45,468 bases of DNA from positions 1-45,468 of the forward strand of contig WFTQ01000110.1 in NCBI GenBank assembly GCA_015485355.1. The letters are read 5' to 3'. This document shows, piece after piece, positions 31,510 to 45,209 of the stretch. Numbering within the stretch: the stretch's first letter is position 1; the number at the start of each line of letters is the position of its first letter. This stretch comes from a bacterium. GTDB taxonomy: Bacteria; Calditrichota; Calditrichia; RBG-13-44-9; J042. The position numbers and the translations under genes were made by a program. The notes under the pieces were generated by a model. The model made no database searches. It saw only the letters and a list, made by a program, of their open reading frames with translations, and was not told the origin of the DNA.

Positions 31510-31627
31510 CACCTACCGCCGCGCCTTTTGGCAAGGAGAGCGGCCCGCTCGGGAAAACCTTGGGGTTTTGGGCGGCCGATCTGTAACATTGTGGTTTGCA
31601 TTGGCAACCGGATGGTACAAACACGAA

Positions 31628-31654
31628 CAGCCGACCCGCTGAACGGATCGGCTG
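31628..31654 (-). terminator. Terminator hairpin after the HAO gene
   Basis: On the minus strand CAGCCGA-T-CCG pairs with CGG-G-TCGGCTG around a 5-base loop. A G-T wobble there becomes an A-C mismatch on the plus strand, so the hairpin fits the minus direction better. It lies 29 bases beyond the HAO stop codon and is followed by a moderately U-rich run (TTCGTGTTTGT). Confidence 0.55.
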
Positions 31655-31683
31655 CTGTGGCTGTTACAACCCGTGGGGGCGGG

Positions 31684-33306
31684 TCAGTAACCTGATGTGC
31701 CTTTCTGAAAAGGTATATCAAAGGACTTCAGATTCAATTTCTGCTGGGGATACAACTCTTTCAAATCGATCTTCAAATTCTTCATCAATTCCTCATGCAA
31801 TTCCGGTAACGGATAAATTCGACCGATCTCTTTGTCTTTATTCTGATAGATTTCCTCGTACATGGCCCATTGTTTGTCGGTTAATAACCCTTTTTCGTAG
31901 GCGGCCTTTACATTCTGGTACACAATTTCCCAATAATCGGGAATGCGGTCCATGGGCAGTTGCCCCCGATACATCAGAGCCGACGGCCCCCAGGTGCTGC
32001 CCGGAATGTCGTACAAAGCATACATGATGAATTTATTGGGATCCTTACTATTCATCCATTCTTTGGCTTCCGGTACTCCGTGTTCCGCCCCGTATTCGAT
32101 AATTTTAATCAGGTTTTCCTGCAATTCCCAGATGCCATGCCATTGCGTATAGTCGGCCCCCATCATCTGAGCCCCATGGCGGAAACGGCGCCCTTCGTGG
32201 TGCCAATTCCGATAGGCGATCTGTTCCACTTCTTCATCATAGCCCTCTTTAGGCCAGTTGGTAATGAACTCGCCTTCATACATAAACCGATCCGTTTTTA
32301 TAACGTTATATTGCTTTAAAAGATTCATCCAATCGATGGTGGCCTTCCAGATTTCGTTGTATTGCAGGTTTACCAGATCGGCCACCAGCAGATAGCGATC
32401 AGTAAAGCTCTGGGAATGGCACTGGTAGCACACTCCTTCCATATTGGCGCGTTTTTCCTGCCAGGGAATGCCTCCCCAGTATTCCTGGGTTCGCACCGAA
32501 AACGGCGCCTGGCTTTCCCAGGTCAACCGGTTGCTGACGTTGTGCGTGGATTGCTGATTGGTGCGGGTGGCACTCATGTGGCAGGTGGCACAGGTAGGCG
32601 CACTAAAGGGCACCGGATCCCCGGGGGGATAGTTCCAATCCCACTCATCCCCATGGGCCACATACATATTCCCATGTTTGGACTCCAGGTAAATTTCGAT
32701 ATGGGGATGATCCGGTCCGATATGACATTCGCCGCAGGTCTCCGGATGCCGGGCCTGTTTCAAAGAAAAACGATGCTTAGAATGGCAGGCATCGCACTCC
32801 CCGATACTCCCATCCGGCCAGTAATTGCCGATATTATGGCACTGCTCGCATCCATGCTTGGTGGTAAGGGTCGGCTGAAAGACGTTGCGATCGGAACCCT
32901 TCAGGGCCATCATAATTTGGGCCGCCGCATGTTTACTGTTATTAAACTCTTTCACCTGATCTTCGTGGCACTTGTTGCAATCCTTCGGGGTGGGATGCTT
33001 GCCGATTAAAAATTCGCTTTCCGGACAACGAAAGGCGTCAAAATCGTCCGCCGCCGCCTCGTGACATTCGTTGCAACCTATACCCATCACCGCATGACGA
33101 CTTTCCTTCCATTCATCAATCAGCTTCACCGCAACGCCCCGTTTTTCGTGGCAATTAATACATTTCGCCGTGGTTTCATCGATCTCAATTTCGGGTTTAA
33201 AGGTGCGCGTCTTCTTCATCTCGACTCCCGCCACGATCAGCAAAGCCACAATCAGCAAGACACTGAAAATCCCGATTAACCATTGCTGTGCTTTTACAAT
33301 ATCCAT
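31684..33306 (-). CDS. hao: Octaheme cytochrome c of the hydroxylamine oxidoreductase (HAO) family
   Basis: The 540-residue protein has an N-terminal membrane anchor (about 8-28) and eight CxxCH heme motifs at residues 49, 78, 110, 153, 171, 191, 239 and 293, the number and crowding of the HAO family. A helical C-terminal domain (about 300-540) follows, with GADYTQWHG near 383. Aerobic nitrifiers use HAO to oxidise hydroxylamine; HAO-family proteins of epsilonproteobacteria without the crosslinking tyrosine reduce nitrite or hydroxylamine. With nap genes upstream and no nrfA in view, nitrite reduction to ammonium is the likelier role. Whether the P460 crosslink tyrosine is present needs an alignment. 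AGGAGG precedes the ATG. The cytochrome b gene ends 47 bases upstream. The membrane anchor suggests quinol-pool or complex attachment. Confidence 0.9.
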   Translation of the reverse strand: MDIVKAQQWLIGIFSVLLIVALLIVAGVEMKKTRTFKPEIEIDETTAKCINCHEKRGVAVKLIDEWKESRHAVMGIGCNECHEAAADDFDAFRCPESEFLIGKHPTPKDCNKCHEDQVKEFNNSKHAAAQIMMALKGSDRNVFQPTLTTKHGCEQCHNIGNYWPDGSIGECDACHSKHRFSLKQARHPETCGECHIGPDHPHIEIYLESKHGNMYVAHGDEWDWNYPPGDPVPFSAPTCATCHMSATRTNQQSTHNVSNRLTWESQAPFSVRTQEYWGGIPWQEKRANMEGVCYQCHSQSFTDRYLLVADLVNLQYNEIWKATIDWMNLLKQYNVIKTDRFMYEGEFITNWPKEGYDEEVEQIAYRNWHHEGRRFRHGAQMMGADYTQWHGIWELQENLIKIIEYGAEHGVPEAKEWMNSKDPNKFIMYALYDIPGSTWGPSALMYRGQLPMDRIPDYWEIVYQNVKAAYEKGLLTDKQWAMYEEIYQNKDKEIGRIYPLPELHEELMKNLKIDLKELYPQQKLNLKSFDIPFQKGTSGY

Positions 33307-33353
33307 ATCGACCTCCTGATAAGATTAACGTGTTATCTTCATTTTCCTCCATT

Positions 33354-34406
33354 CTACATCGCAATTGTTTCCCAGATGGTTAAAACCAGAGTGATAATCA
33401 GCGTCAAGCCGCCGACGGCAAAACTGGTTTTGATCTGGGTTTCCTTGTTGCGCGCAATTAGGGGTTCGATGAAAGGCCAGAACGTCATGGCCACCATGAA
33501 AGCCGCGGTAAGGTATATGCCCAGCTTTAGCGGCACCAGCTTGAGAAACCGGTAAGTGGGATAAAAGTACCACTCCGGTTTAATATGAGCCGGGGTGACC
33601 GTAGGATCGGCCGGCACTCCGATACCCGGCGGTAAAATGACGGTCAAAGTGCTGAGCAATGTGAGCAAGAACAGGCTGGCAATGATGATTTTGTAGAAAT
33701 GATGGGGATAAAAAGAATAATAGCCCTTAGGAAAGCCCTCGGGTTCGGAGACCCCGTGAAGCCGTAGAATAACAATGTGCAGCATGATCAAAAAGATCAG
33801 CACCGGGGGCAAGAACCCGACATGGATGTAGTAAAAACGGGTCAGGGTATTGGCGGTGACCTCTTCTCCACCCCGCAGAAACAGGAATATCCATTGCCCG
33901 ATAAGGGGAACTTCTCTGATCAGGTTGGTTCCCACCGTTGTGGCCCAATAGCTAAGTTGGTTGTATGTCAACGAGTACCCGGTAAAAGCCAGACCCAGGG
34001 TGACCAGAAACAGCATTACCCCGATGATCCAGTTCAGTTCTCTGGGTTTTTGGTACGCCCGGGTAAAGAACACCCGAGTCATGTGCAATAGCAGGGCAAT
34101 AATCATTAAATTGGAGCCCCAACGATGCAGTCCCCGCACCCAGAACCCCACACGCACGTCCTGGGTAATATGCCGGATGCTTTCGTACGCCATTTCGGGA
34201 GAGGGCACAAAATAAAACATCAACAGAATGCCCGTGATAATCTGAAAACCGGCCAGGATCAAGGGAGTGGCTCCCATACAAAAGAACCACTTCTTCATAT
34301 GAACCGGAATGGGTTCTTTAATAAAAATGCGTTCGTTAAACTCCACGAATTTTTGATAATCGATGGGAAAACGTTCTTTCAACCAGTCTTTCCAGCTCAT
34401 GTCCAT
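33354..34406 (-). CDS. Cytochrome b of a menaquinol/b6-type Rieske complex
   Basis: The 350-residue protein combines the four-helix cytochrome b core and a subunit-IV-like part with the Qo motif PEWY at 277-280. Heme-ligand pairs are His94/His108 and His195/His210; the 14-residue spacing of the second pair is of the b6 type. Cys43, in WFFCMGA, sits where cytochrome b6 and Bacillus QcrB bind the extra heme ci covalently. The protein would oxidise menaquinol and pass electrons to the Rieske protein. It overlaps the Rieske stop codon by 10 bases; ATG 34400 is an alternative start. No cytochrome c1 or f gene is next to it; the octaheme HAO gene follows. Confidence 0.93.
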   Translation of the reverse strand: MDMSWKDWLKERFPIDYQKFVEFNERIFIKEPIPVHMKKWFFCMGATPLILAGFQIITGILLMFYFVPSPEMAYESIRHITQDVRVGFWVRGLHRWGSNLMIIALLLHMTRVFFTRAYQKPRELNWIIGVMLFLVTLGLAFTGYSLTYNQLSYWATTVGTNLIREVPLIGQWIFLFLRGGEEVTANTLTRFYYIHVGFLPPVLIFLIMLHIVILRLHGVSEPEGFPKGYYSFYPHHFYKIIIASLFLLTLLSTLTVILPPGIGVPADPTVTPAHIKPEWYFYPTYRFLKLVPLKLGIYLTAAFMVAMTFWPFIEPLIARNKETQIKTSFAVGGLTLIITLVLTIWETIAM

Positions 34407-34861
34407 GGCCCCCTAATTTTCTCTTCCACGTAGATAAACACCAATTTTTTATCCACCTCGACTTTGAATTCATCCAGTGGGCGTGGGGGCGGACCACTCA
34501 CCACGGTGCCGTCTTTGTCGAACACGCCCTTGTGGCAGGGACAATAAAAACGCCCTTTTTCCTCTTCCCAACGGACGATGCACCCCAGATGGGTGCAAAT
34601 CCCCGAAAACACTTTATATCCCGAATCCAGGTGCACCACATAGACGGGCTTTCGGCCAATGGCAATTTTTTTGGCCTTTCCTATGGGGATCTCGCTCTCT
34701 TTACTGACCAGGTATTTGTGGTATTTTTTCTTTTCCAGCGGAGGGAAGAGGTAGAGCACCACGTTGCGCAAAAATCCCAGAATCGCCAGGGTTAACGCCC
34801 CAAGGATGCCAAAGTTCTTTAAAAAACTTCTCCGGGATTGTTTTGCCTCTTCTTTACTCAT
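34397..34861 (-). CDS. Rieske iron-sulfur protein
   Basis: The 154-residue protein has a twin-arginine-like start (SRRSFLKN, residues 9-16) and one membrane helix (about 18-40). Its Rieske fold carries the [2Fe-2S] ligands Cys89/His91 in CTHLGC and Cys107/His110 in CPCHKG; Cys94 and Cys109 would form the stabilising disulfide. It transfers electrons from quinol at the cytochrome b Qo site to a c-type cytochrome in the periplasm. AGGAGG lies seven bases before its ATG, inside the end of napH, which it overlaps by 8 bases. Confidence 0.95.
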   Translation of the reverse strand: MSKEEAKQSRRSFLKNFGILGALTLAILGFLRNVVLYLFPPLEKKKYHKYLVSKESEIPIGKAKKIAIGRKPVYVVHLDSGYKVFSGICTHLGCIVRWEEEKGRFYCPCHKGVFDKDGTVVSGPPPRPLDEFKVEVDKKLVFIYVEEKIRGPWT

Positions 34862-35762
34862 TATTCACCTCCTTTTTTGACCTCTCTGTTTTCGATGCCG
34901 ATTCGCCGACGGCGATCTTTGTTCGGCCATGGGATGTGAAACCCAAAACCAGTGCCCGACCCCATTGCCGGCAAACGACCACACATTCGCCACAATTCAT
35001 ACAATAGGGGTAAATGTCCGCTCGTCGGGGATCCAGGTGGAACGGACAGGCATTGCTGCAGGGTTTGTGGGATCCCCGAACCCTGCAGGCTTGACATTTT
35101 TGGGGGAAATATTGCACCCGTAACGTCCTTCGGTGCATGGCCAATGCCAGGGTGGCTCCCACGGGACAGATATACTTACACCAGAACCGCGAGCGGGTCC
35201 CTACCTCTAGAACCAGCAGAATCCCCACCAGCACGATTTCGATTCCCACGCTGTTTTGAACAATCCAATCGGACAACTGGCCGGAAATCAATCCTGGCAT
35301 GGAAAGGTAGGTCATCAGCGGTACCCCCAGGATAGTCATTATCACCAGGATGCCGGCAAAGATCACCCAGTAGCGGTAAGCCGGCGGGTTGGTGAATCGG
35401 ACACGGGTTCGCGCCGGCAAGCATTTTTCCCCGATCTTTTGAGCAAATTCCCCCAGTAGATTAAAAGGGCACATCCAGCTGCAGAACACTTTTCCCAGAA
35501 AGGCGGCCAACAGAAAGGGAACGGCGGCGGCTATCAACCAGGGAAAAGCAAATTGACCCGTAAGCAGGATCCCTTGAATCACCAAGGCCGGATCCATTAC
35601 GGTCAATTGACCGATCGAAAAGCTATAGAGCGTTCCTGCAACGGCATGGATGCCGGAGGTATTCAGCAGAGGAACGCCCACCAGCACGGCCAGTACCAGC
35701 CATTGACAGACGCGGCGGTACCGGTGCATATGCCGATTGAGGTGCTGGATAGGATCGGTCAT
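34854..35762 (-). CDS. napH: NapH-type membrane quinol dehydrogenase subunit
   Basis: The chosen start (ATG 35762, AGGA eight bases upstream) gives 302 residues; a longer in-frame reading would overlap the preceding gene. The protein has four to five membrane helices, the two CxxxCP motifs typical of NapH (Cys94/98 and Cys195/199, in CSWMCP and CKYICP) and two C-terminal [4Fe-4S] clusters (Cys223/226/235/239 and Cys254/257/260/264). NapH works with NapG to carry electrons from menaquinol to periplasmic nitrate reductase. It begins four bases after the napG-like gene. The C-terminal clusters are predicted to face the cytoplasm. Confidence 0.92.
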   Translation of the reverse strand: MTDPIQHLNRHMHRYRRVCQWLVLAVLVGVPLLNTSGIHAVAGTLYSFSIGQLTVMDPALVIQGILLTGQFAFPWLIAAAVPFLLAAFLGKVFCSWMCPFNLLGEFAQKIGEKCLPARTRVRFTNPPAYRYWVIFAGILVIMTILGVPLMTYLSMPGLISGQLSDWIVQNSVGIEIVLVGILLVLEVGTRSRFWCKYICPVGATLALAMHRRTLRVQYFPQKCQACRVRGSHKPCSNACPFHLDPRRADIYPYCMNCGECVVVCRQWGRALVLGFTSHGRTKIAVGESASKTERSKKEVNNE

Positions 35763-35766
35763 TTCA

Positions 35767-36273
35767 TCAATCCTCAAAATGTCGACTAAAAACCCGAATG
35801 GATGCCGGCTCTGTGGGACACACATTTTCGCAAATACCGCATCCCACGCATTTTTCCGGATGGACCACGGGATAAATCTCCTCCTTAAGGGTAATGGCTT
35901 CTCGATAAATGGGACAGCGCTCGTAACAGGCGCGGCACAAAACGCCATTGTAGGGTAAGCAACCGGCCGTATTGATCGTTGCGGTGCCCATCTTCACCTC
36001 GGCCATCTCGGTGATGGGCTCCAGGGCATCGGTCGGGCAAACAGCCGGACATTTCAGACACAGGTAACAAGGGACTTGCCGGGGATAAATGACCGGGGTA
36101 CCCATTTTCAATCCCCATTCCCCATGCGTCATCCGAATCGTCCCATAAGGGCATACCTGAGCGCATTTGCGGCATCGGATACAAAGCCGCTGGAAGACGG
36201 CCTCCGGCAGAGCGCCCGGCGGACGCAAAGGGGGGTGAAGATTTGCCAGCTTTTTCAGTAACCGCCAGATCAT
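35767..36273 (-). CDS. napG: NapG-like four-cluster ferredoxin without Tat signal
   Basis: The 168-residue protein binds four [4Fe-4S] clusters through motifs at Cys31-41, Cys69-79, Cys105-120 and Cys142-152, the arrangement of NapG/NapF ferredoxins. NapG normally has a twin-arginine leader and acts in the periplasm with NapH; here the N-terminus is short and basic without RR, so export is doubtful. It could be a cytoplasmic partner of NapH or act in NapA maturation, like NapF. GAGGG precedes the ATG. It lies four bases before napH. Confidence 0.85.
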   Translation of the reverse strand: MIWRLLKKLANLHPPLRPPGALPEAVFQRLCIRCRKCAQVCPYGTIRMTHGEWGLKMGTPVIYPRQVPCYLCLKCPAVCPTDALEPITEMAEVKMGTATINTAGCLPYNGVLCRACYERCPIYREAITLKEEIYPVVHPEKCVGCGICENVCPTEPASIRVFSRHFED

Positions 36274-36295
36274 ACCCTCTGCTGCTCCCCCTAAA

Positions 36296-36565
36296 TTATT
36301 CCACGGGTGGGTACGGCTCCTGATCCGGTACCTCGTCCTCGAAATTGATATACGCCGGAAATACCCCGATTACACCCTCGATGGAACGGCTGATGCGATT
36401 GGAAAGCCGCTCCAAACCACTCGTGGATTCGGATTCCAACACCGCAATGATGTTATTGTCTTTATGCACGCCGTAGGTGGTTACCTGCGACAACCGTTTC
36501 AGTGCCTGCAACACCTCCGATGTTTTCTCCGGTAAAGTTACCACCACAACACCAGCAATGGGCAT
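36296..36565 (-). CDS. napD: NapD chaperone
   Basis: NapD is the cytoplasmic chaperone that binds the Tat leader of NapA and delays its export until the molybdenum cofactor is loaded. The 89-residue protein has the ferredoxin-like beta-alpha-beta pattern, with AGVVVVTLPEK at the start, VLQALKRL, and IIAVLESES, and the usual length. GGAGG precedes the ATG at 36565. It is three bases after the upstream ferredoxin gene. Confidence 0.92.
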   Translation of the reverse strand: MPIAGVVVVTLPEKTSEVLQALKRLSQVTTYGVHKDNNIIAVLESESTSGLERLSNRISRSIEGVIGVFPAYINFEDEVPDQEPYPPVE

Positions 36566-36568
36566 CGC

Positions 36569-37210
36569 TTACGCCTCCCTTTTTTCGGGTTTGGGAAAGG
36601 ATGGGTCTGTCTGTCGATCTTCGGGGACAGGCTGCGGCACGGCCGGCGCTCGAATTGCGATGGCCGGAGGATCCTGCACACACACCATCACACATATGCC
36701 GCACCCCGTGCAGTGTTCCGGGGCAATGGTGAGTCGTCCCCGAACGTCCCTGTAAACGGCCCGCCCCATGTGGGGACAGTGGTTCAGACAGGTCTGGCAA
36801 AAACCCTGTTGTTCGTCCAGACAGGTGGAAGCGTCGAATTCCGCAGTCCCCAATTTGAAACGGGTTTTCCAATGGCCCAGGGCCCCCGATGCACAGGCCT
36901 GAATGCAGGGAAAATCGTGGCACAGGTAACAGGCTTGTTGGCGGGGATCGATCATCGGATATCCAAACAACGGGCTCGCTTCATCCTGGCACACGCGAAG
37001 GGCGAAATGGGGGCAGGCGGTTACGCAGGCATGGCATCGGCTACAGGCCGAAAGAAAGGATCGGCAATCCCTCGCCCCCGGTGGCAACAGAACCGACTCC
37101 GCTCGTGGGGAAAGACCCTCCGCCTGAGCTTCCGCCACACCCTGCCGAATCCAACCCAACACTTCCTTAAAAAAGGCTTTTCGGGTGATCGATTTTTCCA
37201 ATGGGTCCAT
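36569..37210 (-). CDS. Second four-cluster ferredoxin (NapF/NapG-like)
   Basis: The 213-residue protein carries four [4Fe-4S] motifs: Cys56-66, Cys94-106, Cys130-145 and Cys167-177. The start MDPLEKSITRKAFFKE resembles NapF or the post-leader region of NapG, but there is no Tat leader. The C-terminal tail is Pro-rich and charged. A duplicate of the downstream NapG-like protein or a NapF homologue aiding NapA assembly are both possible. It follows napA after a strong terminator-like hairpin at 37237-37274. Confidence 0.8.
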   Translation of the reverse strand: MDPLEKSITRKAFFKEVLGWIRQGVAEAQAEGLSPRAESVLLPPGARDCRSFLSACSRCHACVTACPHFALRVCQDEASPLFGYPMIDPRQQACYLCHDFPCIQACASGALGHWKTRFKLGTAEFDASTCLDEQQGFCQTCLNHCPHMGRAVYRDVRGRLTIAPEHCTGCGICVMVCVQDPPAIAIRAPAVPQPVPEDRQTDPSFPKPEKREA

Positions 37211-37236
37211 CTTTCTTGCCTCTGGCTTCAGGGTTT

Positions 37237-37274
37237 AAAGAAAAGGGTGAGGGGTTGGTCGACTCCCCTCACCC
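37237..37274 (-). terminator. Intrinsic terminator between napA and the ferredoxin gene
   Basis: On the minus strand a perfect 10-bp stem, GGGTGAGGGG and CCCCTCACCC (37265-37274 with 37245-37254), with a 10-base loop is followed by TTTTCTTT (37237-37244). It starts 20 bases after the napA stop codon and leaves only 26 bases to the next ATG. Downstream genes must depend on read-through or an internal promoter. Confidence 0.85.
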
Positions 37275-37293
37275 CCCGGAGGAGCGTCCGGCA

Positions 37294-39564
37294 TCAGGCC
37301 TTATAAATGCGCGCTGCAGCCACTTTGTACTCCGGTTCTTTGGAACCGGGGTCAAAGGCATCGATGGTCAGCAGATTGGCCAGCCATTCCTTCCAGTGCC
37401 AGGGGATAAACAGGGTGCCTGGCTCGGGGCGGTCGATGACCCGGGCCTCGATTTCCAACTTCCCCCTTCGGGTTTCCACGACCACGGTATCCCGATTGGC
37501 AATGCCCAGCTTCCGGGCATCCTGGGGATGAATTTCCACATAGGCTCGGGGCACCGCACGGGCCAGCTCCAGCACCGCCCGCGTCATGGTTCCGGTGTGC
37601 CAGTGTTCCAGTACCCTTCCGGTGGTCAACGCGTAGGGAAAATCTTTGTCCGTGGGTTCCGCCGGGGGTTTGGCGGGACGGGCCCAAACCACGGCCTTTC
37701 CGTCCGGTTTGCCGTAAAAATACATCCGACGCCCTTTCTTTTTCTCCTCCGGCAGCTCATCAAAGAAGGGATCGCCCTGGGTATACCGTTTGTAAGTACC
37801 CGGATGCGTTTCGCTGGGCACCGGCCAGACCAACCCTCGCTCTTTCTTCAACCGGGCATACGTGGCGCCGCTCAAATCCATATCCCGCCCTTTGGTCAGG
37901 CTGATATATTCGTTCCAGATATCCTCGGCGGTGCGATACTTTTCAAATTCTTTTTTGAATCCCATGCGCATGGCCAGATCGCGTAGAATCCAAGCGTCCC
38001 ATCGCGCTTCTCCCATGGGCTGAAGCACCTGCGGCATGTACTGCGATCGGCGCTCCGTACACCCATATACCCCTTCCTTTTCGGCCCAGAAGGCCGCCGG
38101 CAGGAGCACATCGGCAAAATCGGAAGTGGCCGTGGGGTAAAACGATTCCGCCAGCACCACAAATTGCTCTTTCAGGCCCTTCCAGAATTTTTGGGCATAG
38201 GGGAGGGACTGCGCCGGATTGGTACACATGATGTAGATGCCCTTGATTTTACCCTCGTTCAGGGCTTCAAACATGGCGATGGTATGTTTGCCGGGCTTGG
38301 GTTGAATGTTGCCGACCGGCACGCCCCAGACTTTTGCCACCTCCTCGCGATGTTTGGGATTGGTCACCTTCCGATGTCCGGGCAGCAAGTGACACAAGCC
38401 ACCCCCTTCACGCACACCACCGCAGGCATTGGGCTGACCGGTTAGAGAGAACGGATCGCTACCGGGCACCCCGATCTTGCCGGTGAGCAGATGCAGGTTA
38501 TGAATTAAATTATTGGCCCATACACCGCGCGTCCGCTGGTTGATCCCCATCGTCCACATGCTCATGGCGGTTTTCGCCTGTCCAAACATGCGGGCCGCCT
38601 TGATGATGTCGCCTGCCGGCACACCACTAATGGCCTCCGCCTTTTCCGGGGTGTAGTCTTCCAGAAATTGCTGATAGGCCTCAAAAGTAATGTCCTTGCC
38701 GTCGTTGCTCTTAAAATTCACATGGTTTTTAATGAAATCCAGATCCGCATATCCCTCTTTGATGATCACATGGGCCATGGCATGCAGCACGGCCAGATCC
38801 CAACCCGGTTTGGGGAACAGGTGTATGTCCGCCACCTGATCGGTTGGAGTTTTGCGGGGATCGATAATCAGGATTTTCACGGTGGGATTTTTGGTTTTAT
38901 GGCGGACGATGCGCTCAAAAATAATCGGGTGGCACTCGGCAGTATTGGAACCGACCAGCAGGAACAATTCCGCATGCTCAATGTCCTGATAGGTGCCGGC
39001 GGGTTCGTCCAGTCCCAGACTACTCAAATAGCCTCCCACCGCACTGGCCATGCACAAGCGGGGATTCCCTTCCATGTTGTTGGTGCCGATGCAGCCCTTA
39101 AAGAGCTTGTTAGCCATATACGTCTCTTCCGTTTCCGCCTGCCCGGAGCCATAAAACGCCAGGGCATCGGGCCCATCGGTCTTTCGGATCTCATTGAATC
39201 GCCGGGCCACATAGTCCAACGCCTCATCCCAGCTCACCCGCTCGAATTTGCCGTTGCGTTTGATCATGGGATACAGCAGGCGGGTCTTGGCATAGATGAC
39301 TTTGTGCAGGAAAAACCCTTTCACGCAAATGTGGCCTTTGTTAATCGGGTTTTTCAGATCGCCCTTGATGGCCACCACCTTATCCCCTTTCTTGCCAATC
39401 ATCACACCACATCCCGTCCCACAAAAGCGGCATACGGATTTCTCCCAGGATACGGCATCGGCGAACAGTTTATTATCCATGCCGGGAATAAGGTTCACGC
39501 CGATGCTGGCCGCCGCCGCAGCCGCTGCCGAGGCTTTTAAAAATTCTCTTCGTTTTAAAGGCAT
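37294..39564 (-). CDS. napA: Periplasmic nitrate reductase catalytic subunit NapA
   Basis: NapA reduces nitrate to nitrite at a molybdenum bis-MGD centre. The 756-residue protein has a Tat leader (KRREFLKA, residues 4-11, then an Ala-rich h-region), the [4Fe-4S] ligands Cys45, Cys48, Cys52 and Cys80, and the molybdenum ligand Cys171 in RLCMASAVGG. The C-terminal molydopterin-binding region contains ALTTGRVLEHWHTGTMTR. AGGAGG precedes ATG 39564; an upstream start at 39627 would precede the Tat leader with a non-native extension. Length is close to monomeric NapA of Desulfovibrio. It follows napM by 10 bases. Formate dehydrogenase is a relative, but the Cys ligand context and the nap neighbours favour nitrate. 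Confidence 0.95.
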   Translation of the reverse strand: MPLKRREFLKASAAAAAAASIGVNLIPGMDNKLFADAVSWEKSVCRFCGTGCGVMIGKKGDKVVAIKGDLKNPINKGHICVKGFFLHKVIYAKTRLLYPMIKRNGKFERVSWDEALDYVARRFNEIRKTDGPDALAFYGSGQAETEETYMANKLFKGCIGTNNMEGNPRLCMASAVGGYLSSLGLDEPAGTYQDIEHAELFLLVGSNTAECHPIIFERIVRHKTKNPTVKILIIDPRKTPTDQVADIHLFPKPGWDLAVLHAMAHVIIKEGYADLDFIKNHVNFKSNDGKDITFEAYQQFLEDYTPEKAEAISGVPAGDIIKAARMFGQAKTAMSMWTMGINQRTRGVWANNLIHNLHLLTGKIGVPGSDPFSLTGQPNACGGVREGGGLCHLLPGHRKVTNPKHREEVAKVWGVPVGNIQPKPGKHTIAMFEALNEGKIKGIYIMCTNPAQSLPYAQKFWKGLKEQFVVLAESFYPTATSDFADVLLPAAFWAEKEGVYGCTERRSQYMPQVLQPMGEARWDAWILRDLAMRMGFKKEFEKYRTAEDIWNEYISLTKGRDMDLSGATYARLKKERGLVWPVPSETHPGTYKRYTQGDPFFDELPEEKKKGRRMYFYGKPDGKAVVWARPAKPPAEPTDKDFPYALTTGRVLEHWHTGTMTRAVLELARAVPRAYVEIHPQDARKLGIANRDTVVVETRRGKLEIEARVIDRPEPGTLFIPWHWKEWLANLLTIDAFDPGSKEPEYKVAAARIYKA

Positions 39565-39574
39565 GTTGGACCTC

Positions 39575-39955
39575 CTATTTAATTGTCGATTCATGCAATT
39601 GCAATGTGTGACCGGGATGACAATCAAAACAGCTGGTCACGTTAAGCTTGGTGAAGTCCACGGAATATCCATCGTGGCAGCCGGCACATTTGGCCGTGGT
39701 GGGCTTGATTTCAAAATCCACGGTACCGTCCCCATGGCACATATAACAGCCAAAATTCATGAACCCATGCTTGCTGCCCCGCCATTCGGTCACAATTTCG
39801 GGCGTTTCCTCCGCATGGCAATCCATGCAGCTCACATCGAACTCCACATCCGGATGCTTTTCGCCCTGAGTGCCCTCGGGTATCGCAAAAGACAACCCAA
39901 TAAACAAAATGCTCAGGGCCAATACGCCAAAGAGGGTGAGGAGATGATTTTTCAT
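39575..39955 (-). CDS. napM: NapM-type tetraheme cytochrome c
   Basis: The 126-residue protein has a signal peptide (about 1-24) and four CxxCH motifs at residues 43, 70, 90 and 109. Small tetraheme cytochromes named NapM are encoded next to napA in Desulfovibrio-type nap clusters, where they are thought to deliver electrons to NapA. This would fill the role of NapB or NapC, neither of which is seen here. GAGG precedes the ATG. It lies 70 bases after the porin gene, with a hairpin between. Confidence 0.9.
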   Translation of the reverse strand: MKNHLLTLFGVLALSILFIGLSFAIPEGTQGEKHPDVEFDVSCMDCHAEETPEIVTEWRGSKHGFMNFGCYMCHGDGTVDFEIKPTTAKCAGCHDGYSVDFTKLNVTSCFDCHPGHTLQLHESTIK

Positions 39956-39988
39956 TGTTCTACCTCGCGGTTTTGATTGACAATAAAG

Positions 39989-40012
39989 GGGAAGGGCACC
40001 CCGACCCTTCCC
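39989..40012 (-). other. Hairpin between porin and napM
   Basis: GGGAAGGG (39989-39996) and CCCTTCCC (40005-40012) form an 8-bp stem with an 8-base loop, followed on the minus strand by CTTTATTG. The downstream run is only partly U-rich, so this may be a weak terminator or a processing/stability hairpin that lets the porin transcript exceed that of the nap genes. Confidence 0.5.
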
Positions 40013-40025
40013 GGTGATTTTTGAA

Positions 40026-41492
40026 TTAAAACTTATACGTAATGGTCGCTTTTAATTCCCAGGCCGTTCCCTTATAGGTATTCGTACCGTTGATCAGAAA
40101 AGCGGCCGCATCGCCCGGAAAGAACCAGCCACCCCGCAGGGTCAGATCCAATTCCTTATACATCTTGTGGGAAATCTTAAAATCCACTTCCTGACCCAAA
40201 TCGGTGGCGGTTTCCGAATAATCGGGATTCCCCTCGGCATCCCATTTCGGTATGGGCTGGGTGGCCTTAAGGTAGTTGTAAGAAAGGAACAAAGACGTAT
40301 TCGGGATCGGCTTAAAGGTGGTGTTTAACTGGATGATCGTGGTGTTCTCCAGCTCGCGATACCCCCGCACATTGGGGGCTCCCAGCCCCTGAGGGGTGAT
40401 GCCTTCTTCGTCGGGCATAATGGAATCTTCCCATACCTCGGTAATGTAAAAGAAGCCGGAAGTGCGCAGCTTGTTCACATTCCCTTTTCCGCTGGTTAAA
40501 TCGTCATCACCGGAACCCATGCCAAATACGGCGCCGACCGATACCTTATCCGTTGCTGCATAGGTGGTCTTCAGGTAAATATTGTAGCCGCTGAGGTCCC
40601 CATTGTTGATGTCCCACATCTGCTTTTTCCCATGGGTGGTATTCTTGATTTTATCCTTTCCCGTCAGGTAGTCCAGCTCCCCTTTAACCGTCCATTTGTC
40701 CTTTTTAAAGGTTCCCGCCACGCCTACGGTCATCAAAGTGCTGATTTGGGGCGAAAAACGGGTCTTAAAGAATTGTAAATGATCGGGGACGTAGGCATTG
40801 TTATCGGCTATGGAAGCATCCCAATAGTACATGCCATACAGATCGTAGGTCAGCACCTCGGAGGCGTTGTTCATATTCAGGATGAACATGTGAGCATCCC
40901 GGGCATCGGTATAACCGCGCGCATCGGGCGAATACACCCGTTCATCGCTCAAGGCATCCACACCTTCGGAAACTTTGGCCCAGCTAAAGGTCACCTTTTT
41001 ACCTATCACCCTGTTCAAATCGAACTGAATCCCATCGTAATTATTGTCCACCATGATCCGGTTGCCCAGACCGTACCACATCCGGCCGACCCGAACATCA
41101 ATGGGGGTGTTGGGAACGGTGAATTCCACATACGCCTGATCTACATGCACCAGGAAGTTGGTATCCTTGAAATCGAACAGGGAACTTCCGCCGCGGGTCT
41201 GGGTTCGCTGAACACTGCGGAGCGCGTTATCGATGCCCCACCAGCCCTGAGCAAGGTCCATGCGGGTGACAAATCGTAGATTGTCATTCACCGCCCCTAC
41301 CACTTTAAAGCGAAGCATTTGCACTACATAATTGTCGTTGTAATTTTCGTTCGCCTTTCCTTTCTTCCCGAACCAGAAATCGTGTTGCGACTGTCCCCAT
41401 GCCGTGTACACACCGCTCACTTTAAATTCCGTGGCGAACGTAACCGTTATGAAGGTTAACAGGGTGATGACGATGGCTATGGCGTGTCTCAT
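40026..41492 (-). CDS. Outer-membrane beta-barrel porin
   Basis: The 488-residue protein has a signal peptide (about 1-20), alternating amphipathic strands rich in aromatic and charged residues, and the C-terminal Phe (TITYKF) recognised by the barrel-assembly machinery. AGGAGG is placed seven bases before ATG 41492; a start six codons earlier would include the ribosome site. It is the first gene of the nap transcript, so nitrate/nitrite passage across the outer membrane is the likely job. Exact family not identified. Confidence 0.82.
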   Translation of the reverse strand: MRHAIAIVITLLTFITVTFATEFKVSGVYTAWGQSQHDFWFGKKGKANENYNDNYVVQMLRFKVVGAVNDNLRFVTRMDLAQGWWGIDNALRSVQRTQTRGGSSLFDFKDTNFLVHVDQAYVEFTVPNTPIDVRVGRMWYGLGNRIMVDNNYDGIQFDLNRVIGKKVTFSWAKVSEGVDALSDERVYSPDARGYTDARDAHMFILNMNNASEVLTYDLYGMYYWDASIADNNAYVPDHLQFFKTRFSPQISTLMTVGVAGTFKKDKWTVKGELDYLTGKDKIKNTTHGKKQMWDINNGDLSGYNIYLKTTYAATDKVSVGAVFGMGSGDDDLTSGKGNVNKLRTSGFFYITEVWEDSIMPDEEGITPQGLGAPNVRGYRELENTTIIQLNTTFKPIPNTSLFLSYNYLKATQPIPKWDAEGNPDYSETATDLGQEVDFKISHKMYKELDLTLRGGWFFPGDAAAFLINGTNTYKGTAWELKATITYKF

Positions 41493-41600
41493 GAAACGAC
41501 CTCCTTTCATTTGTGATTTTTAGTGCAAATTAATTGACGCTCCAAAGGATTACAAAAGCCGTACCATTCTTTAGAATCGACCCTAATTCCTGAATAGTTA

Positions 41601-41634: not shown

Positions 41635-41678
41635 TCACTTGAAGTGACGACATACGGTCACATTGATGGTATGCGGTC
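41635..41678. promoter_or_regulatory. Palindromes upstream of the nap promoter (possible activator sites)
   Basis: TCACTT-G-AAGTGA (41635-41647) is a perfect 13-base palindrome. An imperfect 10-base inverted repeat follows: GACGACATAC (41646-41655) with GTATGCGGTC (41669-41678), eight of ten positions matching. Both lie about 45-90 bases upstream of the inferred sigma-54 start, in the range used by NtrC-type activators, and before the divergent kinase gene. Confidence 0.4.
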
Positions 41679-41902
41679 GCTTCCCTCCTGGAACCGCGTT
41701 TTCCCCGGGTTTAGAATCGCATGGCGCGGATCCACCCGCTATCCCATCTGCCCTGTACCAATCCGGCCGAGGGCCGGGTATCGGAAAGCGGAAGAAGGAT
41801 CGCTACCGCTTAAAGGGGCATTCCCCTTTCGGGCCGCTCCCGGAAGCTTGAAAAAAAGCTTGCGCAAAAGTGAAAATTTTCCTCATATTAAAAGAAAAAA
41901 CC

Positions 41903-43822
41903 ATGCGGCTAACCACCCGGGTCATTTTAATCATCGTCTTAAGCGTAACCACCATCATTTCCATCATTTTTTATGTGCTCATGCAACGGTTTGAGAAACA
42001 GATGCAGGAAGACCTGCTGATTCGGGCACGTTCTATCTACAAAAATATTCTTATCGTGCGAAAATGGGTTTCTCGTTACAACGGGGTTTACGTCTTAAAA
42101 CTACCCGGGGTGAAATCCAATCCCTATTTGCCCCACCCCGACTTGGTCACCACTTCCGGGGATACCCTGACCCTGAAGAATCCGGCCTTGGTGACCCGGG
42201 AACTGAGCGAACTGAGTGGTTACATGGGCGGCAACTTTTCCTTCCACATGGCCAGCCTGAAATACATCAATCCGGCCAACAAGCCCGATGCATTTGAAAC
42301 CAGCGCCTTAATATATTTTGAAAGGGATACCAGCCGGGTCAAGCAGGGGGAGTTCTATCGGGTGGAACGGTATGACGAACACACGATTTTCCGCTACGTG
42401 GCCCCGTTATACACCGAGGAGTCCTGCCTGACCTGTCATTCGGCTCAGGGGTATAAGGTGGGGGATTTACGGGGTGGCATCAGCATTCTGGTCGACATGG
42501 ATCGCTATCAGCAGGCCAAACGAGCCAATATCGCCTTTCTGCTGAGCTCGGCCTTTTTTACCATCATTTTCCTGAGCATTTTAATATTTGTGGCGCTCCA
42601 GGGAAGCGTCATCCGTCCCCTGCGCAAAATCGAAGCCGCCGCCCGTAAAATCCAGGAAGGGGAGTACCAATTCCAGCTGGACGTTAAACAGCGGGACGAA
42701 ATCGGGAATCTGGCCCGTACCTTCGAGGTCATGCGGGACCGGATTCAGCAATACACCCGGAAATTAGAAGATTCGGAAAAAAAATACCGCAGCCTCATTG
42801 AACATTCGCTGGAAGCGGTCGCCATAGTCGACCCCCGCGGCGCCATCATCGATTGCAATTCCAAACTCTTGCATCTCACCGGCTACCAGAGCGACGCCAT
42901 AAAACATTTACGGCTGGAGGATTTACTGGACCTGGGGCATCGCAAGCAAATGGAGAAGGGTTCCGTGTCACAAGGGGATTCGGAGCGATTCGAAACCCTG
43001 CTGGTAACCAGGGACAAATTGCAAATTCCGGTGGAAATTTATCGTATTCGGGGCTTTTCTCTGGGAAGCAAGACCAATCTTTCGTTTGTTTATGTGCGCG
43101 ATTTGACCGAACGGAAAAAGCTTGAACAGTACACCATCCAGACGGAAAAGATGTTTGCCCTGGGGCAACTGTCTTCGGGCATTGCCCACGAAATCCGCAA
43201 CCCCTTGTTCGCCCTCAACAACAACATCGAGTATCTAAAAGAAAAATTCGGGGATCAGCCCGATTTTCAGGAAGTGTATCAGGAACTGCAGAACGGCGTG
43301 GTGCGCATTCAGAACATCGTTTCCGCGATCCTGGATTATGCGCGGCCCCATCAACCGGAATTCAAGCCGGTGGATGTGCATTCGGTGGTTCACAAAAGCC
43401 TGATGTTGGTGCAAAAACAATTTGAGAAATCTCGTATCCGAATCGTTACCGCATTCGCCGCCCGTTCCCGCCAGGTACAGGCCGATCCGCATCAGCTGGA
43501 ACAGGTATTCATCAACCTGTTTTTGAATGCCTTTCAGGCCATGGACGGGGCGGGAGAGTTGCGGATCACCACCCGCCATTTGCGCCATCATCTGGAAATC
43601 CGCATCGAGGATTCGGGCAAGGGCATTCCTCCAGAAGACCTCACCCGCATTTTCGATCCCTTTTATTCCAAATCGCCTAACGGTACCGGACTGGGACTGG
43701 CCATTGTCCAACGCATCCTGGATCAACATCACGCCCGATATCGGGTGGAAAGCCAGCTGGGCCTGGGAACAATCTTTGTGATCGCCTTACCGTACAAGCA
43801 GAGGAGAAACCATGCGGTTTAA
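41903..43822 (+). CDS. Sensor histidine kinase with c-heme-binding DUF3365/Tll0287-like domain
   Basis: Counting from ATG 41903 the protein is 639 residues (an in-frame GTG at 41870 is possible, but neither start has a strong ribosome site). It has a membrane helix (about 5-25) and a periplasmic DUF3365/Tll0287-like domain with a CLTCH heme motif at 175-179. A second membrane helix (about 210-235) leads to HAMP (about 237-290), PAS (about 300-410), HisKA with His429 in GIAHEIRNP, and HATPase. A covalent heme in the sensor suggests redox, gas or nitrogen-oxide sensing. It overlaps the regulator gene by 11 bases and is divergent from the porin-nap operon, its likely target. Confidence 0.92.
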   Translation: MRLTTRVILIIVLSVTTIISIIFYVLMQRFEKQMQEDLLIRARSIYKNILIVRKWVSRYNGVYVLKLPGVKSNPYLPHPDLVTTSGDTLTLKNPALVTRELSELSGYMGGNFSFHMASLKYINPANKPDAFETSALIYFERDTSRVKQGEFYRVERYDEHTIFRYVAPLYTEESCLTCHSAQGYKVGDLRGGISILVDMDRYQQAKRANIAFLLSSAFFTIIFLSILIFVALQGSVIRPLRKIEAAARKIQEGEYQFQLDVKQRDEIGNLARTFEVMRDRIQQYTRKLEDSEKKYRSLIEHSLEAVAIVDPRGAIIDCNSKLLHLTGYQSDAIKHLRLEDLLDLGHRKQMEKGSVSQGDSERFETLLVTRDKLQIPVEIYRIRGFSLGSKTNLSFVYVRDLTERKKLEQYTIQTEKMFALGQLSSGIAHEIRNPLFALNNNIEYLKEKFGDQPDFQEVYQELQNGVVRIQNIVSAILDYARPHQPEFKPVDVHSVVHKSLMLVQKQFEKSRIRIVTAFAARSRQVQADPHQLEQVFINLFLNAFQAMDGAGELRITTRHLRHHLEIRIEDSGKGIPPEDLTRIFDPFYSKSPNGTGLGLAIVQRILDQHHARYRVESQLGLGTIFVIALPYKQRRNHAV

Positions 43823-45209
43823 GATTCTCATATTGGACGACGAAGAACTGGTCTGTAAATCGCTGAAACGCCTGATTCAGGACTCGGAAAAGGAGGTATT
43901 TATCGCCACCCGGGTCGATCAGGCCGAAGCCCTGCTGCAGCAACACCGCATCGACCTGTTGTTACTGGATTACAAATTGGACGGCATCGACGGGTTACAC
44001 GTGCTGGAAAACTTTCTGGAGCAATTTCCCGACCTGGCGGTGATCATGATCACCGCTTACGGCAATGTGGAAACCGCAGTAAAGGCGATGAAGCTGGGCG
44101 CATACGATTTTATTCAGAAAAAGGAGCAACCGGCGTTTATCCGTTTTACCATTGAACGGGCGCTGGACAACCTGCGATTAAGAAAAGAAGTCGAAGAATT
44201 ACAGGCAGCGTTTCAACAGGAGCGGCAACTGCCCCAGATCATTTCCGCCTGCCCCACCATGAAACGGATGCTGGAAATGGCCCGGGAATTCGCCCAGACC
44301 GATACGACGATTCTGATCACCGGGGAAACGGGAACCGGAAAAAACCTCATTGCCCAATATATCCACTACAACAGTCCCCGATTCGATAAATCCTTTGTCA
44401 GCCTCAATTGCGGTGCCATTCCCGCCCCGTTAATGGAAAGCGAGCTCTTCGGGTATGAAAAGGGCGCTTTTACCGGAGCCGATCAGAAAGGTAAAATGGG
44501 TTTACTGGAGCGCGCCGACGGCGGTACGCTGTTCTTGGATGAAATCAGTGAACTGAGCCTGGATTTGCAGACCAAACTGCTCCACGTACTGGAGACCCGG
44601 GAGTTTTATCGCGTCGGTGCGGTTCATTCCACCCGGGTGGATGTGCGCTTTATTGCGGCCACTAACTCCGATCTTCGTCAGCTGGTTGAAGAGAAAAAAT
44701 TTCGGCTGGACTTGTATTATCGATTGAACGTGGCCACCTTAAATATCCCGCCGCTGCGAGAAAGGAAGGAAGACATACTGCCGTTAACCAAATACTTCAT
44801 CGAACACTTTAATCGAAAATTCCATAAACAGGTGAGCGGCATCAGCGAAGCGGCCGAGCATTTTCTTCTCACCGCTCCCTGGAAAGGCAACGTGCGCGAG
44901 TTGAGAAACTACATCGAACGAGCCATGTTGTTGAAAAAAGGCAACCGGATCGACGTGGAAGATTTCTGGGGCACCGGCATGTACCCTGCCGAGACCTCTT
45001 CCGAGGTGGAGTCCGCCTTAACCCTTCATTTGCCGTTGACACCGGGGAAAAACCTCTTCCATGAAGCCCAGAAAAAACTGGTCGAAAAAGCCCTGGAACT
45101 GGCCGAAGGGAACATTTCCCGGGCGGCCCGTTTATTGGGGATTCCCAGAACCACCCTGAACTACTACCTGCAGCGTTTTCGTATCCCCCGCCCTTCCCGG
45201 ATGGAATAA
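43812..45209 (+). CDS. NtrC-class sigma-54-dependent response regulator
   Basis: The 465-residue protein has a receiver domain (about 1-120) with Asp53 in LLDYKLDG, and a sigma-54 AAA+ domain with Walker A GETGTGKN (about 173-180, Asn where Ser or Thr is usual), the sigma-54-contact motif GAFTGA (about 218), Walker B GGTLFLDEI and the Arg finger region. A Fis-type helix-turn-helix ends it (about 425-460, GNISRAARLLGIPRTTLNYY). GAGGAG precedes the ATG inside the kinase gene. It should activate sigma-54 promoters when phosphorylated; the adjacent nap operon is the obvious candidate. Confidence 0.96.
   Translation: MRFKILILDDEELVCKSLKRLIQDSEKEVFIATRVDQAEALLQQHRIDLLLLDYKLDGIDGLHVLENFLEQFPDLAVIMITAYGNVETAVKAMKLGAYDFIQKKEQPAFIRFTIERALDNLRLRKEVEELQAAFQQERQLPQIISACPTMKRMLEMAREFAQTDTTILITGETGTGKNLIAQYIHYNSPRFDKSFVSLNCGAIPAPLMESELFGYEKGAFTGADQKGKMGLLERADGGTLFLDEISELSLDLQTKLLHVLETREFYRVGAVHSTRVDVRFIAATNSDLRQLVEEKKFRLDLYYRLNVATLNIPPLRERKEDILPLTKYFIEHFNRKFHKQVSGISEAAEHFLLTAPWKGNVRELRNYIERAMLLKKGNRIDVEDFWGTGMYPAETSSEVESALTLHLPLTPGKNLFHEAQKKLVEKALELAEGNISRAARLLGIPRTTLNYYLQRFRIPRPSRME

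Follow-up and report, generated by a model that had tools for sequence, protein, structure and literature searches.

A Rieske/cytochrome b-linked octahaem HAO-family cytochrome as candidate nitrite reductase in a predicted nitrate-respiration operon of a Calditrichota bacterium

Introduction

To predict whether nitrate ends up as ammonium or as gas, genome surveys rely on counts of nrfA, nirS and nirK. The closest described relative of the locus analyzed here is the Caldithrix abyssi cluster Cabys_2564-2556, which runs from napM to epsilonHao in the same order as in the window, i.e. the whole stretch of 45,468 nucleotides that was analyzed (contig C110), with neither NapC nor NrfA (PMC5317091). 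For this cluster, the Rieske/cytochrome b pair was described as a possible quinol oxidase and the HAO as the presumed nitrite reductase, the cross-linking tyrosine (Tyr467 of N. europaea HAO) was published as absent from the C. abyssi HAO, and in culture C. abyssi converts nitrate to ammonium (PMC5317091). In Kuenenia, the HAO-like octahaem protein Kuste4574 co-migrates with a Rieske/cytochrome b complex (PMC12954380), and a related HAO (HAOr) without the tyrosine link makes NO, slowly (PMC12485887). For eNOR, Gln at the position of the cross-link Tyr and a cupredoxin subunit II encoded upstream serve as criterion (PMC8756737). On the regulatory side, sigma54 determinants were reported for nap promoters of Desulfovibrio (PMC5701242).

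Since the same cluster and the same proposed pathway have been published for C. abyssi (PMC5317091), our core finding is not new, and the joining of the Nap and Rieske/cytochrome b/HAO modules in one cluster, put forward in a first-pass annotation of this DNA, has to be credited to that work. While the layout itself is known from C. abyssi, an exchangeable HAO position, a Rieske-cytochrome b-HAO triple in many phyla, and a conserved promoter are new here.

Results

Ten intact and co-directed genes on the minus strand (31684-41492) follow each other in the order porin, napM, napA, NapG-like ferredoxin, napD, second ferredoxin, napH, Rieske, cytochrome b and octahaem HAO-family cytochrome (Table 1). 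From the porin to the HAO gene, the intergenic gaps are 70, 10, 83, 3, 22, ~4, −8, −10 and 47 bp, and most starts are preceded by Shine-Dalgarno-like sequences. Gene calls, motifs and recurrence in relatives confirm the tightly spaced minus-strand cluster of the first-pass annotation; of its gene starts, that of the porin (41492) was kept, while those of NapA and NapH were corrected to 39564 and ~35762, respectively. The complete order is also shared by six further genomes of the phylum (L033-L037, L039), to which partial loci at the ends of contigs can be added, and the arrangement is therefore not due to chance. Locus L033 of genome G001, most likely C. abyssi and of the same class, has a gene-by-gene match to the window that extends to the porin and the divergent kinase and regulator genes. 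Those relatives of the window that carry a name are Calditrichota MAGs. The ten genes likely form a single operon. Matches of a terminator scan of the window were weak inside the cluster, the scan being no better than chance overall; attenuation by a hairpin in the porin-napM gap (39989-40012) is conceivable.

Table 1. Features of the cluster and its flanks (positions of the window)
Feature	Position	Strand	Evidence and remarks
Terminator-like hairpin, weak	31626..31656	-	~27 bp 3' of HAO stop; 14-pair stem, weak T tail
Octahaem HAO-family cytochrome c, "type A" form, 540 aa, N-terminal membrane anchor	31684..33306	-	8 CxxCH; PF13447 100.6 bits; best PDB match 4qo5; tree position
Cytochrome b of Rieske/cytochrome b complex, 350 aa	33354..34406	-	PF00033 168 bits, PF00032 43 bits; four His as two H-X14-H pairs
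Rieske [2Fe-2S] protein, TAT signal/anchor	34397..34861	-	PF00355; CTHLGC...CPCH; SRRSFL
NapH-like membrane ferredoxin (predicted quinol oxidation)	34854..35762	-	TIGR02163 96 bits, PF12801; start inferred from sequence and relatives
NapG/NapF-like ferredoxin without signal peptide	35767..36273	-	PRK09476 NapG 140 bits
NapD chaperone	36296..36565	-	PF03927 48.9 bits
NapG-like ferredoxin	36569..37210	-	PRK09476 97 bits
NapA, catalytic subunit of periplasmic nitrate reductase, TAT signal	37294..39564	-	NF010055 NapA 718 bits; 82% identity to L033 (C. abyssi-like locus)
NapM tetrahaem cytochrome	39575..39955	-	4 CxxCH; 49% identity to L033 gene at napM position
Outer-membrane porin	40026..41492	-	NF033939, PF13372 (DESULF_POR1/Alginate_exp); conserved first gene of cluster
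Sigma54-like promoter TGGTACGGCTTTTGTA	41551..41566	-	~59 bp upstream of porin; same kind of element in 17/21 loci
Two tandem TGAC-N8-GTCA-type palindromes, 19 bp apart, one degenerate; candidate activator site	41645..41679	-	Sequence comparison
Divergent sensor histidine kinase, Tll0287-like sensor domain, one CxxCH	41870..43822	+	PF11845 79 bits; conserved neighbour
NtrC-family sigma54-dependent response regulator	43812..45209	+	PF00158 230 bits, PF00072, PF02954

Because NapA, NapG and NapH score below the NCBI strict equivalog cut-offs, they were assigned by best match, motifs and synteny. NapA carries a TAT signal, the cysteines of the N-terminal [4Fe-4S] cluster (CX2CX3CX~27C) and the Mo-ligand Cys in RLCMAS, and its best NCBIfam match is NapA, which supports the earlier prediction that Nap would make nitrite. 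Together with the tetrahaem NapM and with NapD, these features are those of a NapMADGH-type system; neither NapB nor NapC was found among the ten genes. The next two genes encode the Rieske cluster motif and the four haem-b histidines of a Rieske/cytochrome b pair. In the WFFCMG motif of the cytochrome b, some homologues (Zixibacteria, KSB1, Kryptonia) have Ala instead of Cys; we take this Cys to be at the position where cytochrome b6 binds haem c_i.

The HAO-family protein has eight CxxCH motifs and the conserved catalytic Asp-His pair, D199/H200 aligning with D267/H268 of N. europaea HAO, and its membrane anchor is conserved. Among solved structures, that of the octahaem cytochrome from Ignicoccus (4qo5) comes closest in sequence, with 232.7 bits to profile A4. 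Tyr386 is aligned with a Trp of 4qo5 and a Val of Kuenenia 6h5l, while operon orthologues have Tyr or, in several cases, Phe at this position; alignments with N. europaea HAO end before Tyr467. An AlphaFold2 model of the protein was discarded (mean pLDDT 47).

A putative control region precedes the porin gene. TGGYAY-N5-TTG was found here in 17 of the 21 loci, with an expectation of 0.4-1.3% per shuffled region. Paired palindromes (TGAC-N8-GTC-type, 18-19 bp apart, at most one mismatch each) were present in 10 of the 21 loci, two of which are near-identical, compared with 0-1 in 1000 shuffles. They lie 107-114 bp upstream of the sigma54-like element (113 bp in the window, with one half degenerate), and this near-constant distance of ~110 bp extends across several phyla. 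As testing followed the discovery of the motif in the same sequences, the near-constant spacing is the better evidence, and only conservation and spacing were given weight. The genome holds a single exact copy of the palindrome; elsewhere, only matches with two mismatches were found, near control level, so that no wider regulon was seen, and matches to the sigma54 consensus across the whole window were at chance level. The kinase/regulator pair is conserved beside the cluster in relatives. The combination of a conserved sigma54-like promoter near paired palindromes with a predicted haem-sensor kinase/NtrC-type regulator pair is new here.

For a search of the full genome (3.44 Mb, 98.7% complete) for nrfA, nirB, nirS and nirK, as suggested in the first-pass annotation, we used targeted family searches. 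Genome-wide, there was no match over the cut-off for NrfA (Cytochrom_C552, PF02335), no NIR_SIR protein (NirB/NirA), no match to the Hcp/prismane family and no true NirS or NirK. Three lookalikes were rejected: a NrfA-like match on C31 is an octahaem secreted cytochrome with a T9SS tail (20.8 bits, below cut-off), a NirS-like match on C91 is a YncE/YVTN beta-propeller without cytochrome c, and a NirK-like match on C109 is a CopA-like multicopper oxidase (87 bits vs the cut-off of 296). These absences favour the HAO as nitrite reductase. Within the window it is the only candidate, as had been claimed; in the genome as a whole it is the best one but has a possible alternative, a further octahaem HAO-family gene (416 aa) located at the edge of contig C84 (L043:291-1538). 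The C84 gene is followed by one for a NapH-like Fer4 membrane protein. Matches to PF03264 (NapC/CycB) were confined to large multihaem proteins on C47. On this contig (L107, L108), very large multihaem cytochromes with 17 and 19 CxxCH are fused to or adjoin cytochrome b-like membrane proteins.

The genome also encodes a clade II NosZ (878 bits vs the curated cut-off of 625) and, on C105 (L105:1150-2868), a haem-copper subunit that appears eNOR-like from GHPSQQ, with Gln replacing the cross-link Tyr in a by-eye reading made without alignment to a known eNOR. A cupredoxin (COX2-like) subunit gene is located just upstream, with SCO1 as a neighbour, and no NCBIfam model names the eNOR-like gene. 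A cbb3 oxidase and an aa3-type oxidase are encoded as well. Thus, the steps from NO to N2 are plausibly encoded while a canonical nitrite reductase is absent, and with this combination gene content alone cannot decide between ammonium and NO.

Of 45 named loci with this HAO group, 35 have Rieske and/or cytochrome b genes that directly adjoin the HAO gene, a fraction that is not a census because the search patterns select for this group. These loci come from Calditrichota, KSB1, Zixibacteria, Gemmatimonadota, Neomarinimicrobiota, Ignavibacteriota, Kryptoniota and Chloroflexota, and from single Clostridiales and Proteobacteria bins. New here is that Rieske, cytochrome b and HAO form a conserved triple in at least eight phyla, whether nap genes are close by or not. 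In Ignavibacteria, kinase and regulator genes come after the triple, and porin-napM-napA-napD-napH after these, whereas no nap genes were found within the fetched flanks of the triple in Zixibacteria (L061; a stretch with masked runs) and Gemmatimonadota (L062). In two Kryptonia loci (L077, L102), porin and Rieske-cytochrome b-HAO flank another molybdopterin-type match (33% identity to NapA) in place of napMADGH.

The HAO and cytochrome b genes differ in their genealogies. The window HAO is 71-76% identical to those of a Zixibacteria bin, a Gemmatimonadota bin and two other Calditrichota, and 56-59% identical to the HAO of syntenic C. abyssi-type operons; for cytochrome b, identity is 73-77% to the C. 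abyssi-type operons and 58-61% to the Zixibacteria and Gemmatimonadota operons. In trees, the six "type A" HAOs group together with good support, whereas the accompanying cytochromes b are scattered, the conflict affecting the window (31684-33306) and L059, L060, L061 and L062. Forced agreement of the two trees was rejected both ways, with AU p-values (9e-6 to 1e-91) that are not strict because the groups were chosen after the trees had been seen. G003 and G001, coded as the same genus, have cytochromes b of 85% and HAOs of 57% identity. Base composition did not differ between the HAO gene and its neighbours. In the simplest reading, which is new here, more than one lineage has apparently had its HAO gene, but not that of cytochrome b, replaced by a deeply divergent type; alternatively, ancient duplication and loss or binning error in short contigs might account for the conflict.

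Discussion

From gene content, order, conservation, motifs and the absence of the other known nitrite reductase families, we infer a nitrate-respiration operon, transcribed as a single unit, in which the HAO would reduce nitrite with ammonium as the likeliest main product, a reading that we consider somewhat better than evenly supported. In the periplasm, NapA would reduce nitrate to nitrite, drawing electrons from quinol through NapH/NapG, NapM or both. The Rieske/cytochrome b complex would also oxidise quinol, its electrons passing to the membrane-anchored HAO directly or via NapM, and the HAO could then carry out the six-electron reduction of nitrite to ammonium at one haem site. The haem-sensor kinase and the NtrC-type activator may switch the operon on from the sigma54 promoter. 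As far as nitrite reduction, this pathway is likely; the "full nitrate-to-ammonium chain" of the first-pass annotation says too much, as ammonium is a deduced product, Hcp is absent, and NosZ and the eNOR-like gene fit a route via NO as well.

For the operon reading with ammonium as main product we counted the families and motifs, the same order in relatives, the physiology of C. abyssi, the lack of NrfA, NIR_SIR, Hcp, NirS and NirK, the adjacency of Rieske/cytochrome b and HAO genes, the Asp-His pair, the co-migration in Kuenenia and the promoter spacing. Against it counts that the main support is the physiology of C. abyssi, whose likely locus holds an HAO only ~59% identical to that of the window; also the NO-making Kuenenia HAO, NosZ with the eNOR-like gene as the downstream half of denitrification, and the second HAO-family gene.

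It is possible, though less likely, that the HAO is an NO-forming nitrite reductase and the operon feeds denitrification through Nap, Rieske/cytochrome b-HAO, the eNOR-like enzyme (NO to N2O) and clade II NosZ (N2O to N2). NO is the product of Kuenenia HAOr (PMC12485887) and was proposed for the Rieske/cytochrome b-linked Kuste4574 (PMC12954380), and the eNOR-like subunit with its upstream cupredoxin gene appears, by eye, to be in line with the published criterion (PMC8756737). The NosZ score and the lack of NirS and NirK point the same way, but C. abyssi, which carries the same operon, makes ammonium, and G001, its likely genome, has no NosZ match over the cut-off. Moreover, NosZ without Nir is common among bearers of clade II nosZ, and HAO type and NosZ do not pair cleanly in the phylum, type A occurring in G003 without NosZ and type B in G005 and G036 with NosZ. 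Quite unlikely is a role of the HAO in detoxifying hydroxylamine or NO from nitrate respiration, the Rieske/cytochrome b complex mainly serving NapM/NapA. It would fit with NapM and NapG/H using one common quinol pool, with the promiscuity of octahaem cytochromes and with the exchangeable HAO position, and the second paralogue beside the NapH-like gene could be the nitrite reductase; the triple, however, persists without nap nearby in Zixibacteria and Gemmatimonadota, which makes HAO, not Nap, the constant partner of the Rieske/cytochrome b complex. A reverse-HURM as proposed for Nautilia, with hydroxylamine made by HAO and converted to ammonium by a cytoplasmic Hcp, is very improbable: the association of HAO with Nap is that of Nautilia (PMC3701875) and Deferribacter (PMC6896113), but the genome has no prismane/Hcp match, the cluster no NapC/CycB, and PF03264 matches only the C47 proteins.

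Tentatively, and on the unlikely side, the last position of the operon may be an exchangeable cassette, in which deeply different HAOs, perhaps with different products (ammonium or NO), stand behind the same Rieske/cytochrome b complex. Here, Rieske/cytochrome b-HAO would be the missing nitrite reductase of a denitrification by Nap, HAO, eNOR and NosZ without NirS/NirK.

With the genes used in surveys absent, a quinol-linked octahaem enzyme common to relatives from many phyla is the best candidate, and its product decides between nitrogen retention and loss for these lineages. The conserved triple points to a way of reducing nitrite that, unlike that via NrfH or NapC, would conserve energy, and the cultured relative C. 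abyssi makes the question testable.

Among known systems, the C. abyssi cluster shares the order of napM, napA, ferredoxins, napH, Rieske, cytochrome b and HAO, the lack of NapB/NapC and NrfA, and the proposed pathway. Compared with the C. abyssi-like L033, the window HAO lies on a separate deep branch (~59% identity, vs 82% for NapA and 74% for cytochrome b), and its genome also holds NosZ and the eNOR-like gene. The Kuenenia R/b-3 complex (Kuste4569-4574; PMC12954380, PMC12485887) likewise has an HAO-like octahaem cytochrome encoded alongside Rieske/cytochrome b, with co-migrating subunits; unlike the window, it includes a further multihaem cytochrome as well as an NAD(P) oxidoreductase, has NO as proposed product and lacks a link to Nap. 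In NapMADGH-HAO of Deferribacter autotrophicus and the reverse-HURM of Nautilia (PMC6896113, PMC3701875), an HAO-family protein also replaces NrfA beside Nap, yet without Rieske/cytochrome b next to HAO and with Hcp and, in Nautilia, CycB instead. The octahaem cytochrome of Ignicoccus hospitalis (4qo5), closest to the window HAO among solved structures, is archaeal. Finally, the Desulfovibrio nap/nrf system (NrfS-NrfR, HcpR1; PMC5701242) is alike in two-component regulation and sigma54 determinants at nap promoters, whereas the window has tandem TGAC-N8-GTCA palindromes and a Tll0287-type sensor.
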